A DNA stretch of 23,686 bases from IMG/VR virus record IMGVR_UViG_3300047172_000280, positions 1 through 23,686 of that record, one strand, 5' to 3'. This DNA is from a virus. Below are positions 3,638-17,859 of this stretch, one piece after another (positions within the stretch are counted from its first letter, which is position 1; each line of letters starts with the position of its first letter). The notes under the pieces were generated by a model. It ran no database searches. It saw nothing but the letters and a program-made list of their open reading frames with translations, and had not been told where the DNA came from. Made by a program: the position numbers and the translations under genes.

Positions 3638-4966
3638 ATGGGTATTCAGAATTTTCCGGCGGCTTTGCAACCGATTATTCAGCAGGGCTTCCTTGAAAGG
3701 GAATTTCAGCAGGCGCTACGATCGAGACTTGGGTATCGGGCCTGTGCAGATCGGGAAGAATTCTCCGTTGGCATTGGCGAGACGCTGACGAAGACACGGG
3801 CAGGGTTGCGGCCGGCGGTAACGACGCCGCTGGCGCCCAATACCAACACGAATTTGGATAACGGTTTAACCGCGGGGACATGGGGCGTTGAGCAATATAC
3901 CCTGACGCTCAACAATTATGCATCCACCATGGACCTGAACATGGTGACCAGCCGCGTTGGGATTGCCAGCTTGTTCCTGCAAAATGCCTACACTAACGGC
4001 GAGCAGGCCGCGCGCAGTCTGGATGATTTGGCACGCAATGCGCTTTTCGCAGCGTATTTCGCCGGCAGCACCCGGGTCTTGGCCAGCTTGACGAGCGCCG
4101 GGCCGGTGATTGCCGTGGATGACCTGCGCGGCTTCCAGACCGCTTTTGTTAATGGTATTCAGCAGGCTGTGTCTTCGGCAAATCCACTGGGCGTGACGGT
4201 TGGCGCCGATAGCTATATGCTGATTGGTGCTGTGGCCGATGCGACGAACGTGTCGTTGGCGCCGGGCGGCATTTCCGGACAACTGACCTTCGCGACCAGT
4301 GTCAGTATATCTGACGGAGCGGCGGGTAATTCTGTGCTTGCCGCGACCGGATCGCTCATTCTGCGACCGAATGGGCGGAGCAATACGAGCCAATTGGCGG
4401 CTGGCGATACGTTGGCTATGACGAACGTGTTGGACGCAGTGGCTAATTTGCGATTGAACGCGGTGCCGGACATTGACGGCGCCTATAATTGTTATTTGGA
4501 CCCAATCAGCGCGCGGCAACTATTTGCTGATCAGGATTTTCAACGCCTGTTCATTGGTGCGACCTCGGCGACCGAGGTTTTCAAACCCGGTCAGGGCGTG
4601 GTTAACGACTTCCTCGGCCTGCGCTTTGTGCTGACGAATGAGGCCTTCGTGCAGCCTTATCCGGGCGTTCCCGGTGCGGCGGTGCGGCGGCCGATCGTGG
4701 TGGGGCAGGGGGCGCTGATCGAGGGTGATTTTGCTGGCATGGCGGCTGACGACGTGGCGCCGAGCGACGCCATTGTTTCTCTTATTGACGGCGTTTGCAT
4801 GGTGACGCGCGAACCGTTGGATCGGTTGCAGCAGATTATTGCTCAGTCCTGGTATTGGATCGGCGGCTTTTGCGCGCCATCGGACACGACGACCACGAGC
4901 CTGACCGTGGCGACGGCGACCAATGCGAATTTCAAGCGGGCGGTTATGATTGAACATTTGGGATAG
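3638..4966 (+). CDS. major capsid protein (P22 coat/N4 gp56-like)
   Basis: The 442-residue protein starts at the ATG at 3638, after a purine-rich GGGGGC stretch. It is placed after portal and scaffold. The part around residues 281-340 (YNCYLDPISARQLFADQDF, then a VNDFLGLRFVLTNEAF stretch) resembles the segment of P22 coat/N4-gp56-like capsids in which a 'peptide copy' strand precedes a G-x-RF-V-x-T-x turn. The middle (about 190-265) is Gly/Ser/Thr-rich and could be an inserted surface domain. No cleavable delta domain or protease is evident. An 80-base gap lies before it and a 155-base gap with a strong stem-loop after it. Confidence 0.85.
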   Translation: MGIQNFPAALQPIIQQGFLEREFQQALRSRLGYRACADREEFSVGIGETLTKTRAGLRPAVTTPLAPNTNTNLDNGLTAGTWGVEQYTLTLNNYASTMDLNMVTSRVGIASLFLQNAYTNGEQAARSLDDLARNALFAAYFAGSTRVLASLTSAGPVIAVDDLRGFQTAFVNGIQQAVSSANPLGVTVGADSYMLIGAVADATNVSLAPGGISGQLTFATSVSISDGAAGNSVLAATGSLILRPNGRSNTSQLAAGDTLAMTNVLDAVANLRLNAVPDIDGAYNCYLDPISARQLFADQDFQRLFIGATSATEVFKPGQGVVNDFLGLRFVLTNEAFVQPYPGVPGAAVRRPIVVGQGALIEGDFAGMAADDVAPSDAIVSLIDGVCMVTREPLDRLQQIIAQSWYWIGGFCAPSDTTTTSLTVATATNANFKRAVMIEHLG

Positions 4967-8079: not shown

Positions 8080-9651
8080 ATGCCGGTATTCCAACAAGGC
8101 AGCCTTAATACCACCGGGTTAGTGGTGCCAGATTTGTACGTGCAAATCGTGCCACCGCAAAATCTTGTTTTGAATGGTGTTCCGACGAACCTCATCGGCA
8201 TTGTTGGCTCTGCCACATGGGGGCCGGTCAATCAGCCCGTGGTGGTTGGGACGATGGCGGATTACGCAACCGCGTTTGGCCCCGTGATCATCCGTAAGTA
8301 TGACATGGGCACTAATGTAGCGACCGCCGTGCAGCAGGGGGCAGCGGGTTTCCGCTGCGTGAGGGTTACCGATGGCACGGATGCGGCCGCACGGCTCATG
8401 CTGGGTGTTGCTGAAAGCGTGTTCGCGGCGCAATTGACCGCACGCTATACGGGATCACTGGGCAATAGCGTTGCGGCATCCCTGATGATGGGTAGTTTGG
8501 CAAGCACATGGCGGCTTACCCTGACGACGCCTGGTTCCCTAACCGAGGTTTATGACAATATACCGGCGCCGGCGCCGGCACAATTCTGGCAGAATCTGGT
8601 CGCCGCGGTAAATACAGGTACCGGACCGTTGCGTGGCCCGTCACAATTGGCGGTGGCTGCGCTGGGCAGCGGGACCGGGATTGCGCCAGCCGCATTTACC
8701 GGGCAAGCCCTGCAGGGCGGAACGGATGGCGCCAGCGGGATCAACGCAGCGACACTGGTGGGGCAAGATGTGTTGCCGCGGACGGGCATGTACGCCCTGC
8801 GTGGGCAGGGCTGCAGCCTTGGCATGTTAGCTGACGCGGATGATCCGACGCAGTGGGTCACGCAATCGGCGTTTGGGCTCTCCGAAGGCGTGTATATGAT
8901 CCTGGTTGGTCCCGCTGGCGACACGATTACCGACGCCGTGACGACGATTCAGGAAGCTGGCTTGAACGCGTACTCCGCGAAGCTGATGTTCGGTGATTGG
9001 ATTTACTGGTCGGACCAGACCAACAATGTCATTAGACTGGTTTCGCCGCAGGGTTTCGTAGCCGGGCGCCTCGGTAATCTTTCGCCCGAGCAGTCAAGCT
9101 TGAACAAGCCGCTTTACAGCGTTGTTGGATCGCAGAAGACCGGAATCCCAGGTAGCGGGCAGGCGGCCACCTATAGCGAGTCGGAGTTGCAGGCCTTATT
9201 TCTGAGTGGCATTGACCTGATTTCAAATCCACAGCCAGGTGGCGCGTATTGGGGTGTGCGGTGTGGCCATAACACCTCGAGCAACCCGGCGACCTATGGC
9301 GACAACTATACGCGTATGACCAATTTTATAGCGGCGACGTTGGCCGCCGGCATGGGCCTGTTTGTTGGCAAGGTTATAAATTCTCAGTTGTTCCAGCAAA
9401 TCCGTTCGACCCAGCTCAGCTTTTTGCAGGCGCTCTTGAGCCAGGGAATTCTTGGCAGCAGCAATGGGCAACTGCCATTTTCGGTGATTTGCGACACCAG
9501 TAATAACCCGATCAGCCGAACAAGCCTGGGCTATGTCCAAAGTGATGCTCAAGTGCAGTTCCAGGGCATAAATGAGAAGTTCATTGTAAACGTTGAGGGC
9601 GGGCAGACGGTAATTGTTCAGAGCCAGATTTTGCCAGGTAGCGCCCCGTAG
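8080..9651 (+). CDS. contractile tail sheath protein
   Basis: This encodes 523 residues from the ATG at 8080, with AGGAGA at 8068-8073; the frame is open to 7849 but that part has no ribosome site and overlaps the previous gene. The N-terminus (PGLYVQIVPP-like: VVPDLYVQIVPPQN, then GIVGSATWGPVNQP) and the C-terminal block (TRMTNFIAATLAAGM through a fL-xx-LLSQGIL and SVICDTSNNP segment) are classic for phage sheath proteins. Sheath subunits form the contractile outer tail tube that drives DNA injection. The tube gene follows after 73 bases. Confidence 0.95.
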   Translation: MPVFQQGSLNTTGLVVPDLYVQIVPPQNLVLNGVPTNLIGIVGSATWGPVNQPVVVGTMADYATAFGPVIIRKYDMGTNVATAVQQGAAGFRCVRVTDGTDAAARLMLGVAESVFAAQLTARYTGSLGNSVAASLMMGSLASTWRLTLTTPGSLTEVYDNIPAPAPAQFWQNLVAAVNTGTGPLRGPSQLAVAALGSGTGIAPAAFTGQALQGGTDGASGINAATLVGQDVLPRTGMYALRGQGCSLGMLADADDPTQWVTQSAFGLSEGVYMILVGPAGDTITDAVTTIQEAGLNAYSAKLMFGDWIYWSDQTNNVIRLVSPQGFVAGRLGNLSPEQSSLNKPLYSVVGSQKTGIPGSGQAATYSESELQALFLSGIDLISNPQPGGAYWGVRCGHNTSSNPATYGDNYTRMTNFIAATLAAGMGLFVGKVINSQLFQQIRSTQLSFLQALLSQGILGSSNGQLPFSVICDTSNNPISRTSLGYVQSDAQVQFQGINEKFIVNVEGGQTVIVQSQILPGSAP

Positions 9652-9724: not shown

Positions 9725-10153
9725 ATGCCAATCAATTCGTTCTCAATTGGGCGGGACTGTCAGTTTGTGGTTATGGGACCATTCGGGCGGGTGGATCTTA
9801 CATACGTAACGGGTTTCGAAAGCAGGCAGTTGACCCAATCCATAAGGTTGGATCGGCTGGATGGTGTGCCAATGGGGGCGGAGTTGCCGAAGGGGTGGGA
9901 AGGCAGCTTTGAGGTTGAGCGCGGCACGAGCGCGGTGGACGATTTTATAGCTGCAGCAGAGCAGGCCTTTTTCAACCAGGGGAACCTGCCCGCGGGTACC
10001 GTGTACCAGTATGTGGCAGAGGTGGATGGGTCGGTTTCAACGTATCAATACAGCGGCGTTGTGTTCAAGCTGGCGAACGCAGGTAGCTGGCGGGGTGACG
10101 CCGCGGTAAAGCAGAAACTGGAATTTTTCGCCACTCAACGGGTGCGCGTATGA
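9725..10153 (+). CDS. tail tube protein
   Basis: The 142-residue protein starts at the ATG at 9725 with AAAGGA upstream. The sequence MPINSFSIGRDCQFVVMGPF, the PKGWEGSFEVERG stretch and the terminal SWRGDAAVKQKLEFFATQR are typical of small myophage tube proteins, and it sits directly after the sheath. Subunits stack as hexameric rings to form the DNA conduit. Its stop overlaps the chaperone start (ATGA at 10150-10153). Confidence 0.9.
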   Translation: MPINSFSIGRDCQFVVMGPFGRVDLTYVTGFESRQLTQSIRLDRLDGVPMGAELPKGWEGSFEVERGTSAVDDFIAAAEQAFFNQGNLPAGTVYQYVAEVDGSVSTYQYSGVVFKLANAGSWRGDAAVKQKLEFFATQRVRV

Positions 10154-10497
10154 TGGCGACCCCAAGTCAACGGATTTTAGCGGCGGCGAATGAGGTTCTG
10201 ACAGCGAGGGATTCGACGGGGCGCGTGCTGACGCTGCGGCGGCTTGGGGCCTTGGACAGGCTACGCTTGTTCAAGGCCGTGGGGGCCGCTCTCGCGGAGA
10301 ATCCTCCCTATCTGGGCATGGTGATGCTTGCCGCCTCGGTCACGGCAATCGACTCGGTTCCGGTTCCATTGCCAGTGACCGAGGGGCAATTGGAGAGTTT
10401 GGTTCAACTTCTCGGCGATGACGGAATGCTTGCGGTGGCGGACGCGCTGGATGCAGCTGAGCAGCCGCCTGTGGAGCTCACCACAGCGGGAAACTGA
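10150..10497 (+). CDS. tail assembly chaperone, short (gpG-type) product
   Basis: The 115-residue zero-frame product starts at ATG 10150, coupled to the tube stop; a second ATG directly follows. It contains VLTLRRLGALDRLRLFKAVG and ends with ELTTAGN. Chaperones of this kind coat the tape measure protein before tube polymerisation and are absent from the finished virion. The last two sense codons (GGA AAC) together with the G before them form a slippery heptamer directly before the UGA stop, so part of the translation is expected to continue in the -1 frame (next entry). Confidence 0.85.
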   Translation: MMATPSQRILAAANEVLTARDSTGRVLTLRRLGALDRLRLFKAVGAALAENPPYLGMVMLAASVTAIDSVPVPLPVTEGQLESLVQLLGDDGMLAVADALDAAEQPPVELTTAGN

Positions 10498-10664
10498 GCC
10501 GGCACCCCGATCTGGTCGATAGTCTTTATTTGATCCGGAACGGGGTGCCGTTTGACGTTGCATTTTCCTTGGCGCCGTTGGAGCGCCTGGCGTGGGTGGT
10601 GGTCATGGGCCGGTTCGATGGGCTGGACTATGATTGGCAGGAGCGGCAATGGACGATCGCTTGA
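10150..10664 (+). CDS. tail assembly chaperone, -1 frameshift (gpG-T-type) fusion
   Basis: If ribosomes slip back one base on G-GGA-AAC (10488-10494), reading resumes at CTG 10494 and adds 56 residues to the 115 zero-frame residues (171 in total), stopping at TGA 10662-10664. The added part contains NGVPFDVAFSL, ERLAWVVVMGRFDG and YDWQERQW, recognisable as the C-terminal half of phage chaperone fusions. That part has no start codon or ribosome site of its own near its beginning and is open in the -1 frame only from 10461. In other phages the fusion links the chaperone to the tape measure protein. The next gene starts at 10649, inside this frame. Confidence 0.85.
10488..10550 (+). promoter_or_regulatory. 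programmed -1 ribosomal frameshift signal
   Basis: The heptamer GGGAAAC (10488-10494) reads G GGA AAC in the chaperone frame, matching X XXY YYZ. The UGA stop and two more bases form a 5-base spacer. After it CGGCACCCCG (10500-10509) pairs perfectly with CGGGGTGCCG (10541-10550), a 10-bp stem with a 31-base loop. Heptamer, spacer length and downstream stem together are the standard elements of a -1 frameshift site. Confidence 0.9.
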
Positions 10665-11833
10665 CTCTGGCAGGCATCTTCGGCGATGGGCGGCGGCAGA
10701 TAATTCCTTTGATGGAAAAAGCTGTTGTAGGAACGGCGGACACAGAAATCGGCCGGGTGCTGGGCCAGGTTCTACACGAAAGGTTGGCCGGCTTCCGCGC
10801 GCATTTGACGAGACTGCGGCGTATCGGCGCGGCTGCGCGTGATGCGTTTGCGCCACGGCCACGCCGGCAAGCCACTGCGCATGCCTTGCTTACTCATGAC
10901 ATCGGGCATCCTGAGCAGGGCTTTTCCAGTCTCACATTTGCGGGTGCGCGGTTGCTTGGAAACAGCACCGCCGTAGCCCGGAAGTTTGGCGATGGCGCAG
11001 TGAGTGGGAAGATCGCGACGCCAAAACCGACCAAAGCTGCTGACGCTGGCCGTGTTGCACTGACAAACAGCATCGAGCGGGCGTATAGCAGCGCACGCAT
11101 TCGACATGCCGAGATCAGCGAAGATAACGAAGAAAGAACCGGCAAAGGCCGCCAGATGTCGGGAATGGCGTCTGGCCCGACCCGGGTTCCAACCGGTGGA
11201 GGGGTGAGCGCCGGGCGGCTGAAAGTTGAAATGATAAGCGCGAACCAGGCGACTTCGGGCCTGGCGGTTAGCGGCGGGATAGCGGCACGCGGACCTGGCT
11301 CGCTAACGCCGGTTGCGCCAGGCGTATCGTCCCCTGTGCTGGAACACAGCAAAGCCACGAGGGTTGAGCATACGGCGCGCGATCGAGCACGTAAAGCATG
11401 GCAATCAGCGCAGGCGTTGACGTTGCGGGCTAATACTCAGCTTCAACGTGCCGCCCCAAGTGCTGGACGCATCCGGTTGGTTGACACATCCCAGGATCTG
11501 CCGCGGTCCGCAGCGGCCCCCGAAGCCGTTGACCTGCGGCCCGCACCCAATGCTGCAGGGACGCGGGGTGCTGGAACCGCAACGACAACTGGCTCGCACG
11601 CAAGCGCGCCGGAGCGAGGCGGGGCTGCTGCAGGGCTAGATGCGGCTCATCGGAGCGATGCGCGAATCGAAACAAACGTGCCTCGGCAGGGCGACGTGTT
11701 TCTGGACGGTGCATTGATGGGACGATGGATGGCGCGCACTCTTGCACGGGAAGCCGGACGCGCCCCTTCCGGGGGTGCCGCCTTTGATCCGCGCCGGTCG
11801 CCATTGCCCACGGGCCGGATGATTGGAGGCTGA
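10649..11833 (+). CDS. putative short tape measure protein (by position)
   Basis: This encodes 394 residues from ATG 10649, with AGGAGCGG just upstream, and overlaps the chaperone fusion by 16 bases. It occupies the place where myophages encode the tape measure protein, which sets tail length. The first ~100 residues are partly helical (LMEKAVVG, IGRVLGQVLHERLAGFRAHL). Residues ~120-340 are low-complexity, rich in Ala, Gly, Ser, Thr and Arg, and lack the long helical heptads and membrane segments usual in tape measures. The C-terminus (GDVFLDGALMGRWMARTLAR, then FDPR) looks conserved. If it is the tape measure, its length predicts a short tail. It could instead be another baseplate or tail-tip protein. 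Confidence 0.5.
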   Translation: MDDRLTLAGIFGDGRRQIIPLMEKAVVGTADTEIGRVLGQVLHERLAGFRAHLTRLRRIGAAARDAFAPRPRRQATAHALLTHDIGHPEQGFSSLTFAGARLLGNSTAVARKFGDGAVSGKIATPKPTKAADAGRVALTNSIERAYSSARIRHAEISEDNEERTGKGRQMSGMASGPTRVPTGGGVSAGRLKVEMISANQATSGLAVSGGIAARGPGSLTPVAPGVSSPVLEHSKATRVEHTARDRARKAWQSAQALTLRANTQLQRAAPSAGRIRLVDTSQDLPRSAAAPEAVDLRPAPNAAGTRGAGTATTTGSHASAPERGGAAAGLDAAHRSDARIETNVPRQGDVFLDGALMGRWMARTLAREAGRAPSGGAAFDPRRSPLPTGRMIGG

Positions 11834-15905: not shown

Positions 15906-16547
15906 ATGATCGGCAACGTTCAGGATATGGCGCGGCGCATTATGGCTGTGCTGCCGCAAAACTGGTTTGCCGATGATGCGCCAGTTGTTGGCGCTGTTTC
16001 TCAGGGCTTCGGTAGCGCGATGGCAGCGGTCTACGGCCTGATCCAGTTTGTAATAGGACAATCACGCATTTTAACGGCGTCCGGCATTTTTCTGGATGCG
16101 ATTAGCGCTGATTTCTTCGGCAGTGATGTGACACGGCGTCCAGGTGAGGCGGATGTGCCGTTTCAAAAACGGATCTGTCAAAATTTGTTGCGACCGATGG
16201 CGACCCGCTCCGCGCTGGTCACGGCGCTGGCGGAACTGACGGGCGCCGACCCGATCATATTCGAACCGGCGCGGACGAGTGATACGGGGGGCTACCGGGT
16301 AGGCGGTGTAGCATACGGCGTTTCAGGCGGCTGGGGCAACCTGGCGTTGCCGTATCAACTATTTATAACCATCGCTCGGCCGGTTGGTGGCGGCATTGCG
16401 CAGTTGGCGGGTTATGGGACCGGGGGCATTCCGGTTTATGGCAGCGTGAGCTGGGAGACCGCCAATATCTCGGATGCCGAATTATTTGCGGCTGTGCCGC
16501 CGCTGTTGCCGGCGGGAACGATTGCCTGGTGCCGGCTCAGCGGCTGA
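15906..16547 (+). CDS. tail protein I-like baseplate component
   Basis: The 213-residue protein starts at ATG 15906, two bases after the J-like stop. N-terminal helices (ARRIMAVLPQNWFADDAPVV; ASGIFLDAISADFFG) are followed by RRPGEADVPFQKRICQNLL and a C-terminal YGVSGGWGNLALPYQLF segment. Position between the J-like protein and the tail fibre is that of P2 gpI/Mu gp48, which links wedges to fibres. Sequence similarity to the best-known gpI proteins is only general, so the assignment rests on gene order as well as motifs. Confidence 0.75.
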   Translation: MIGNVQDMARRIMAVLPQNWFADDAPVVGAVSQGFGSAMAAVYGLIQFVIGQSRILTASGIFLDAISADFFGSDVTRRPGEADVPFQKRICQNLLRPMATRSALVTALAELTGADPIIFEPARTSDTGGYRVGGVAYGVSGGWGNLALPYQLFITIARPVGGGIAQLAGYGTGGIPVYGSVSWETANISDAELFAAVPPLLPAGTIAWCRLSG

Positions 16548-16612
16548 CCTGCGCCCGTGGCAATACCCCGGGGGATTATACGCAATCAATCCATGTAAGA
16601 GGGATTCCTGCC

Positions 16613-17859
16613 TTGGATCGAGAAATTGTCTATCCTGGTGCTATACCGCTCGACACCGATATACTTTCGATCGAGCGAAACGTCATGATCGCCATCGGAT
16701 ATTTGGCCCAGGCTACGCTGGGTGCGAACTTGGTTGCGGACGGGTTGGCGTGCACACCGACGGTGCCTGCGTCGATGGCGATCTCGATCGGTCCGGGGTG
16801 CCTTTGTCAGCTGGGGGTGGTGGATTCTGAACCATTTGGATCTCTGCCGGCGGAGCCCGTGGTGCCGCTGGTGCAAATGGGCATTAACGCATTGGCGACG
16901 CCGTTTACGCTGACGGCACCCGCGGGAGCCGGCCAGGCAGTGAATTATCTGATCCAGGCGAGTTTCCTGCAGTCAGATGCGACACCTGTCGTATTGCCGT
17001 ACTACAACGCTGCAAATCCCGGACTGCCGTATAGCGGACCTGGCAACTCGGGCGCACCGCAAAATACACAGCGATTGCAGAGCGTGCAGTTGGAGATGAA
17101 GGCGGGGGCACCCGCAGCGGCCGGTAGTCAGACGACGCCGAATGTGGATGCCGGTTGGGCCGGGCTGTACGTGGTGACCGTTCCGGCTGGTGCGGCGGCG
17201 ATTTCGGCCAACAACATCAGCGTCATGCCGGGAGCGCCTTTCATAGCCTGGAAATTGCCGAAACTTTCTCCAGGGACCAGCCGAATGGCGGAATTCACGC
17301 CGGCGAGCCAGGGTGTTTGGAACGTGCCGCAAGCCGTAACAAACGTCAAAGTGCGGGTCTGGGGGGCGGCGGCGCCGGCGGTGGGGGTTTTGGCACCGCC
17401 GGCGGCGGTGGTGCTGGCGGTGGCTACGCTGAAGGTTACTGCACGGTCTCGCCCGGCGAGGCCATTACGATATCGGTCGGTAATGGCGGAGTGGGTGCTG
17501 GCACAAACGGCGCGGGTTCCAGCTTTGGGACAGCGCTTGCGGCTGGCGGCGGCGAAGCTGGCAGCAATGGTGGGTCTGATGCTGGTGGGGCAGGCGGTGG
17601 TGTTGGAGGGGCCGGGAGCGGCGGGGGTCTTTCTGTCACGGGTCAGGCTGGGGCGGGCGCTTTTGCAGCGGGCCCGGTTTGGGTGAGTGGTCGTGGCGGT
17701 GGCGCATATGCCGGCGCCGGCGCGGAAGCCGCTGTTGGAACGGGCGCAAGTAATACCAATGGTGCCTCAGCTAACTTGCCGGGCGCGGGTGGCGCCGGTG
17801 GCGTGGGTGGCGGCCTGGGTGGCCAGGGTGGAACGGGGCTCGTTTTGCTCGAATGGTGA
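16613..17859 (+). CDS. tail fibre with glycine-rich C-terminal domain, frame-disrupted near 17361-17368
   Basis: TTG 16613 (AAGAGGGA at 16597-16604) starts at DREIVYPGAIPLDTD, a fibre N-terminus I recognise from related phages; GTG 16529 is a longer alternative. The first frame runs through VWNVPQAVTNVKVRVWGA to 17368, then becomes Ala/Pro/Val/Arg-rich and ends at TGA 17686. The -1 frame from about 17362 gives a typical fibre Gly-rich domain (GGGGFGTAGGGGAGGGYAEG, SPGEAITISVGNGGVG) ending LVLLEW at 17859. One lost base, or a -1 slip, would restore a 415-residue fibre. Gly-rich domains of this kind are adhesin tips. Whether the break is real, programmed or a base-call error cannot be told here. 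Confidence 0.75.
17361..17366 (+). other. G6 tract at the fibre frame break
   Basis: Six G residues at 17361-17366 are followed by CGGCGGCGCC. The upstream frame reads TGG GGG GCG and the Gly-rich frame reads GGG GGC GGC, so the two frames meet here. Homopolymer slippage in replication, transcription or translation, or a sequencing indel, could all change the frame at this site. It is not an X XXY YYZ heptamer in the upstream frame. Confidence 0.6.

Follow-up and report, generated by a model that had tools for sequence, protein, structure and literature searches.

The tail assembly chaperone (TAC) frameshift of phage lambda, G/GT, was reportedly described by Levin in 1993 and by Xu, Hendrix and Duda in 2004. 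Frameshifts of this type are widespread in long-tailed phages (PMC5009743), and GGGAAAC and AAAAAAC have been put forward as the heptamers of chaperone genes in other phages and in archaeal viruses. In the large Caulobacter siphophages phiCbK (AAAAAAC) and Colossus (GGGAAAC) they are predicted only (PMC3556154); the cassette described here and its relatives use the same two variants, in the same gene role. In Burkholderia phage KL1, GGGAAAC is predicted immediately upstream of a TGA stop at gp18/gp19 (PMC3483164), as is found here; KL1 differs in being a siphovirus with a larger extension, and covariation is not presented in the part of that paper drawn on here. A homologous cassette, with AAAAAAC, TGA and a near-identical stem, is present in Komagataeibacter phage phiKX1 (BCZ76063/BCZ76064; LC644975), where, in contrast, the two halves are annotated as separate hypothetical proteins. 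No description of a frameshift in the phrog_20383 family, to which the N-terminal half belongs, was found, and none is mentioned in the phiKX1 paper (PMC8566455). In the phiKX1 sequence (L089, 7869-8410), the presence of AAAAAAC at 8207-8213 points to a single joined CDS.

Here, a cassette of this kind was analysed in a 23.7-kb virus record (IMG/VR IMGVR_UViG_3300047172_000280), all 23,686 nucleotides of which constitute the window; the features located within it below are on the + strand. The record carries a contractile-tail module comprising a sheath gene (a phrog_23 match), a probable tube gene, the chaperone gene and a gene encoding a protein of 394 aa. The probable tail tube gene (9725..10153), directly upstream of the chaperone, matches phrog_12993 (E=1e-42), a family whose function is not named in PHROGs; in relatives, the same slot after the sheath is occupied likewise. 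The zero-frame chaperone ORF (10150..10497), encoding a gpG-like short product of 115 aa, matches phrog_20383 (E=8e-25), and comparison with homologous sequences indicates that ATG 10153 may be an alternative start. The order of sheath, tube-position gene and TAC is the same in the window and in relatives. Downstream, the 394-aa gene (10649..11833) begins before the −1 frame has ended and probably encodes the tape measure protein, a name given by position since profile searches, PHROGs included, returned no family match for this gene in the window, and the single-sequence model, which displays long helices, is of low confidence. In relatives with the same cassette, phrog_28 tape measure proteins are encoded downstream, sometimes with one gene between; examples lie shortly downstream of the chaperone in L156 (E=2e-26), where a neck or completion protein intervenes, and in L166 (E=8e-21). 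A chaperone gene positioned between tail tube and tape measure is characteristic of the lambda G/GT type.

A model match to the HK97 TAC, weak matches to phrog_508 and gene order identify the N-terminal protein as a tail assembly chaperone. Its own family, phrog_20383, is of unknown function in PHROGs, and searches of Pfam, NCBIfam and PDB sequences gave chance matches only, leaving the family unnamed; Megablast against annotated phages gave no match. The TAC family that contains Mu gp41, phrog_508, with which the gene shares its position, was weakly matched by 8 of 75 family members, with E values down to 8e-4, and Mu gp41 by itself also gave a weak result in a direct comparison of profiles (probability 32%). 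The AlphaFold model of the N-terminal product (pLDDT 89), computed from sequences of the window and the scan loci, placed the HK97 TAC, 2OB9, at rank 1 in a Foldseek search of the PDB (E=0.04, prob 0.93), with structural similarity likewise highest for 2OB9 (VIA, Z=5.0), followed by YqbN (3KLU, Z=4.7), while matches among viral models included several annotated tail assembly chaperones. The likeness to the HK97 TAC, which covers the whole of the modelled domain and has the fold expected of a chaperone, is considered to be of moderate strength.

The slippery heptamer, G_GGA_AAC, occupies 10488..10494 in frame with ORF 10150-10497, the zero-frame codons being GGA (10489-91), AAC (10492-94) and TGA (10495-97). 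A 5-nt spacer (10495..10499) separates it from a perfect 10-bp stem with a 31-nt loop, formed by the 5′ arm CGGCACCCCG (10500..10509) and the 3′ arm CGGGGTGCCG (10541..10550). The −1 frame proceeds with CTG from 10494 and is open for 56 sense codons to TGA 10662-10664, encoding a gpT-like extension of 56 aa plus stop (10494..10664) that is predicted to be reached by frameshifting. Heptamer, UGA, spacer, stem and −1 frame are all located in the sequence exactly as the preliminary description had placed them. The RNA from 10495-10556 folds with −32.9 kcal/mol, which corresponds to z = −5.1 relative to 200 dinucleotide-shuffled sequences. Folding of the window also predicts an inner helix within the loop, but as a whole it was not conserved among relatives, and only the lower stem is therefore claimed. 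Upstream, GGAG at 10473..10476, 15 nt before the heptamer, may serve as a weak and optional Shine-Dalgarno-like stimulator, comparable with the signal of E. coli dnaX; Shine-Dalgarno-like 4-mers starting at −18 to −12 were found in 44 of 106 relatives as against 5-23 in other 7-nt bins, an enrichment which is not universal and in which kinship is uncontrolled. Taken alone, the anatomy of heptamer and stem is suggestive. Bare GGGAAAC is not rare in the window (4 occurrences compared with 2.7 expected), two slippery heptamers on its + strand have a perfect stem of ≥8 bp nearby, and at least one such combination arose in 43 of 200 Markov-simulated sequences, or about a fifth. Proof of the signal consequently rests on conservation.

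Relatives of the −1 peptide numbered 492 in viral contigs and 88 in bacterial genomes, from which the best 80 of each were fetched. Of 143 distinct homologous regions, 138 had a slippery heptamer at this same junction, comprising 114 GGGAAAC, 22 AAAAAAC, one AAAAAAG and one AAAAAAA; GGGAAAC was exactly at the junction in all 80 viral homologues (the best 80 of 492), and switches of the GGG triplet to AAA were found among the genome homologues. A DNA scan of viral contigs with the pattern RRRAAAC, which took no account of the protein and accepted any three purines before AAAC, recovered 77 distinct cassettes, 58 with GGG, 19 with AAA and none with a mixed triplet. The strict C-terminal motif followed in the −1 frame in 66 of these 77, the 10 listed as lacking it being divergent members of the family. 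All-or-none switching between GGG and AAA is a requirement of slippage, not of coding. Synonymous agreement for the zero-frame heptamer codons GGA and AAC was 1.00. Within the −1 frame, the arm codons CAC, CCC, GGG and GTG had pairwise synonymous agreements of 0.82-0.98, compared with a mean of 0.42 and a maximum of 0.73 for other codons, such that synonymous sites are frozen only in the heptamer and the stem arms; the GGG and GTG codons of the 3′ arm were identical in 107 of 107 core relatives.

The stem is maintained as a structure as well as a sequence. Across 77 divergent relatives, aligned gapless with the spacer in the same register, 93.8% of stem cells were paired, against 37-48% in slid controls, and changes on both sides, i.e. 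double compensatory changes, were evident in 5 of the 10 pairs. The Elstera homologue (L167) retains a perfect 10-bp stem despite five double changes, and in Methylobacterium (L170) a C-G pair is replaced by G-C; since most stems are invariant, the covariation signal derives from few divergent lineages. The locus thereby possesses what is expected of stimulated −1 frameshifting, namely a structured RNA 5-9 nt downstream of the heptamer that has been kept by selection. The comparison across relatives that the preliminary description had put forward as a check therefore bore it out, in the junctional heptamer of 138 of 143 regions and in a stem that is paired and covaries. The GGG/AAA switches together with the covarying stem provide a clean comparative case for a bacterial −1 frameshift signal, as predicted from sequence, and the comparative case for programmed frameshifting is very strong.

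A separate small gene in the −1 frame, translated by reinitiation after the UGA from a start of its own with the heptamer incidental, would account for the annotation of phiKX1, in which the C-terminal part is a CDS beginning at an internal ATG, and for the Endobacter homologue (L165), where an ATG precedes the conserved part in the C-terminal frame. However, in 107 of 138 relatives the stretch from the last −1 stop to the junction contains no ATG, GTG or TTG, an internal start would forfeit the conserved LSRHPDLVD segment, and the synonymous sites of the heptamer are invariant, making this explanation very improbable; a conserved −1 ORF without its own start is instead a property of the lambda G/GT type. 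Fusion through transcriptional rather than ribosomal slippage, on the GGGAAA run, is less probable again: the AAAAAAC variants do offer a run of six A, but GGGAAAC, with runs only of three, is found in most members, a covarying stem at ribosomal spacing fits slippage by the ribosome, and it is the X_XXY_YYZ register that selection has kept. A sequencing error or gene decay, conceivable for a metagenomic record whose own tail fibre gene has a homopolymer-associated frame break, is already refuted by conservation and carries next to no weight, the same −1 relation occurring at the same base in more than 100 independent contigs and genomes, isolates included.

A stem-stimulated programmed −1 frameshift in the TAC gene, giving a short and a fused product, is thus almost certainly the correct reading of the locus, in keeping with the preliminary description, given the invariance of the heptamer, the GGG/AAA switching, the synonymous constraint, the covariation and the identity of the chaperone. 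Most ribosomes would read GGA AAC UGA and then stop, releasing the 115-residue chaperone. In a minority, delayed by the 10-bp stem that lies beyond the 5-nt spacer, the tRNAs in the P and A sites would slip back together by one base, from GGA AAC to GGG AAA, and reading would continue with CUG AGC through the sequence AGN-LSRHPD, adding 56 residues to yield a fusion of 171. On the model of lambda gpG/gpGT, the tape measure protein would be coated by many copies of the short form and few of the long one, whose extension would recruit tail-tube subunits. The efficiency of slippage at this site is uncertain, since in E. coli AAC is weaker than AAG as the A-site slippage codon (PMC5009743).

The arrangement is of a known kind, that of lambda G/GT, and the novelty, which is considered solid, lies in the frameshift and function ascribed to the phrog_20383 family. 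The predicted shift resembles that of lambda in its location near the end of the gene preceding the tape measure, in its short and extended products and in its heptamer of the G_GGA_AA- type. The lambda heptamer is GGGAAAG, and hence the last base is C here and G in lambda; a further difference is the strong stem that is conserved here 5 nt after the heptamer, and no sequence relation of the present chaperone to lambda gpG was found. The proteins of phrog_20383, found mainly in Acetobacteraceae phages and prophages, are proposed to function as tail assembly chaperones to which frameshifting adds the −1 extension.

The zero-frame UGA (10495..10497) lies inside the spacer, and a stop codon is similarly placed in 115 of 138 heptamer-bearing relatives. 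The remaining 23 have a sense codon directly after the heptamer, with the next zero-frame stop shortly beyond. The earlier proposal that this stop fixes the ratio of the two products was accordingly not sustained, as slippage sets the efficiency and the 23 relatives have a sense codon instead; judging from these alignments, prompt termination of unshifted ribosomes would be common and an adjacent stop not required. That the choice of AAC in the A-site, the usual adjacent stop and the stem, kept from Proteobacteria to Planctomycetes, together constitute a variant of frameshifting seems unlikely. Were it so, the chaperone ratio would be tuned by the asparagine tRNA of the host or by termination at the neighbouring stop, unlike at AAG-type sites of E. 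coli. The expectation that a gene finder would miss the second half holds for the fusion but not for the −1 part as such, which in phiKX1 was called as a separate short gene from the internal ATG; gene finders may treat the −1 part in this way.

Conservation of both chaperone halves extends from genomes of Acetobacteraceae to those of Planctomycetes. Named hosts are mostly Acetobacteraceae or Rhodospirillales, with other carriers in Methylobacterium, Elstera, Glomeribacter and the planctomycetes Limnoglobus and Zavarzinella. The chromosome of Limnoglobus roseus, far from the usual Acetobacteraceae hosts, contains two copies of the cassette (L156, L163). A match of Microbacterium phage Pumpernickel to the C-terminal part was set aside as likely due to chance, being near a terminase with no recognisable tail context. 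The five loci without a heptamer at the junction (L145, L159, L160, L164 and L165) also lack a full stem: six contiguous pairs persist in L145 and L165 and seven interrupted pairs in L159, and the stem is also broken in L160 and L164. In L159, GGGAAAC is situated about 20 codons upstream, with a linker (translation GNG, then stop). The other four, L145, L160 (Rhizobium), L164 (Caulobacterales) and L165, have no recognisable heptamer and keep both halves, in a −1 relation in L145, L160 and L164; these four must express the extension otherwise, and the window is unaffected. In L165 (Endobacter medicaginis; around 3900-4001) the two parts are offset, the C-terminal one being in +1 with respect to the N-terminal one, and a UGA lies close to the junction; either a +1 frameshift or a separate start is possible.

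A second combination of heptamer and stem in the window, GGGGGGC at 17361, was rejected as a signal: it falls out of register in a Gly-rich fibre gene that relatives read through in frame. At 17360-17366 the Gly-rich C-terminal domain of the fibre changes frame after a run of six G (ORFs 16529-17686 and 17155-17859). Relatives L171-L173 read TGGGGCGGC in frame, indicating that the window has two extra G in this gene, and the extra pair represents either an assembly error or a phase-variable homopolymer.
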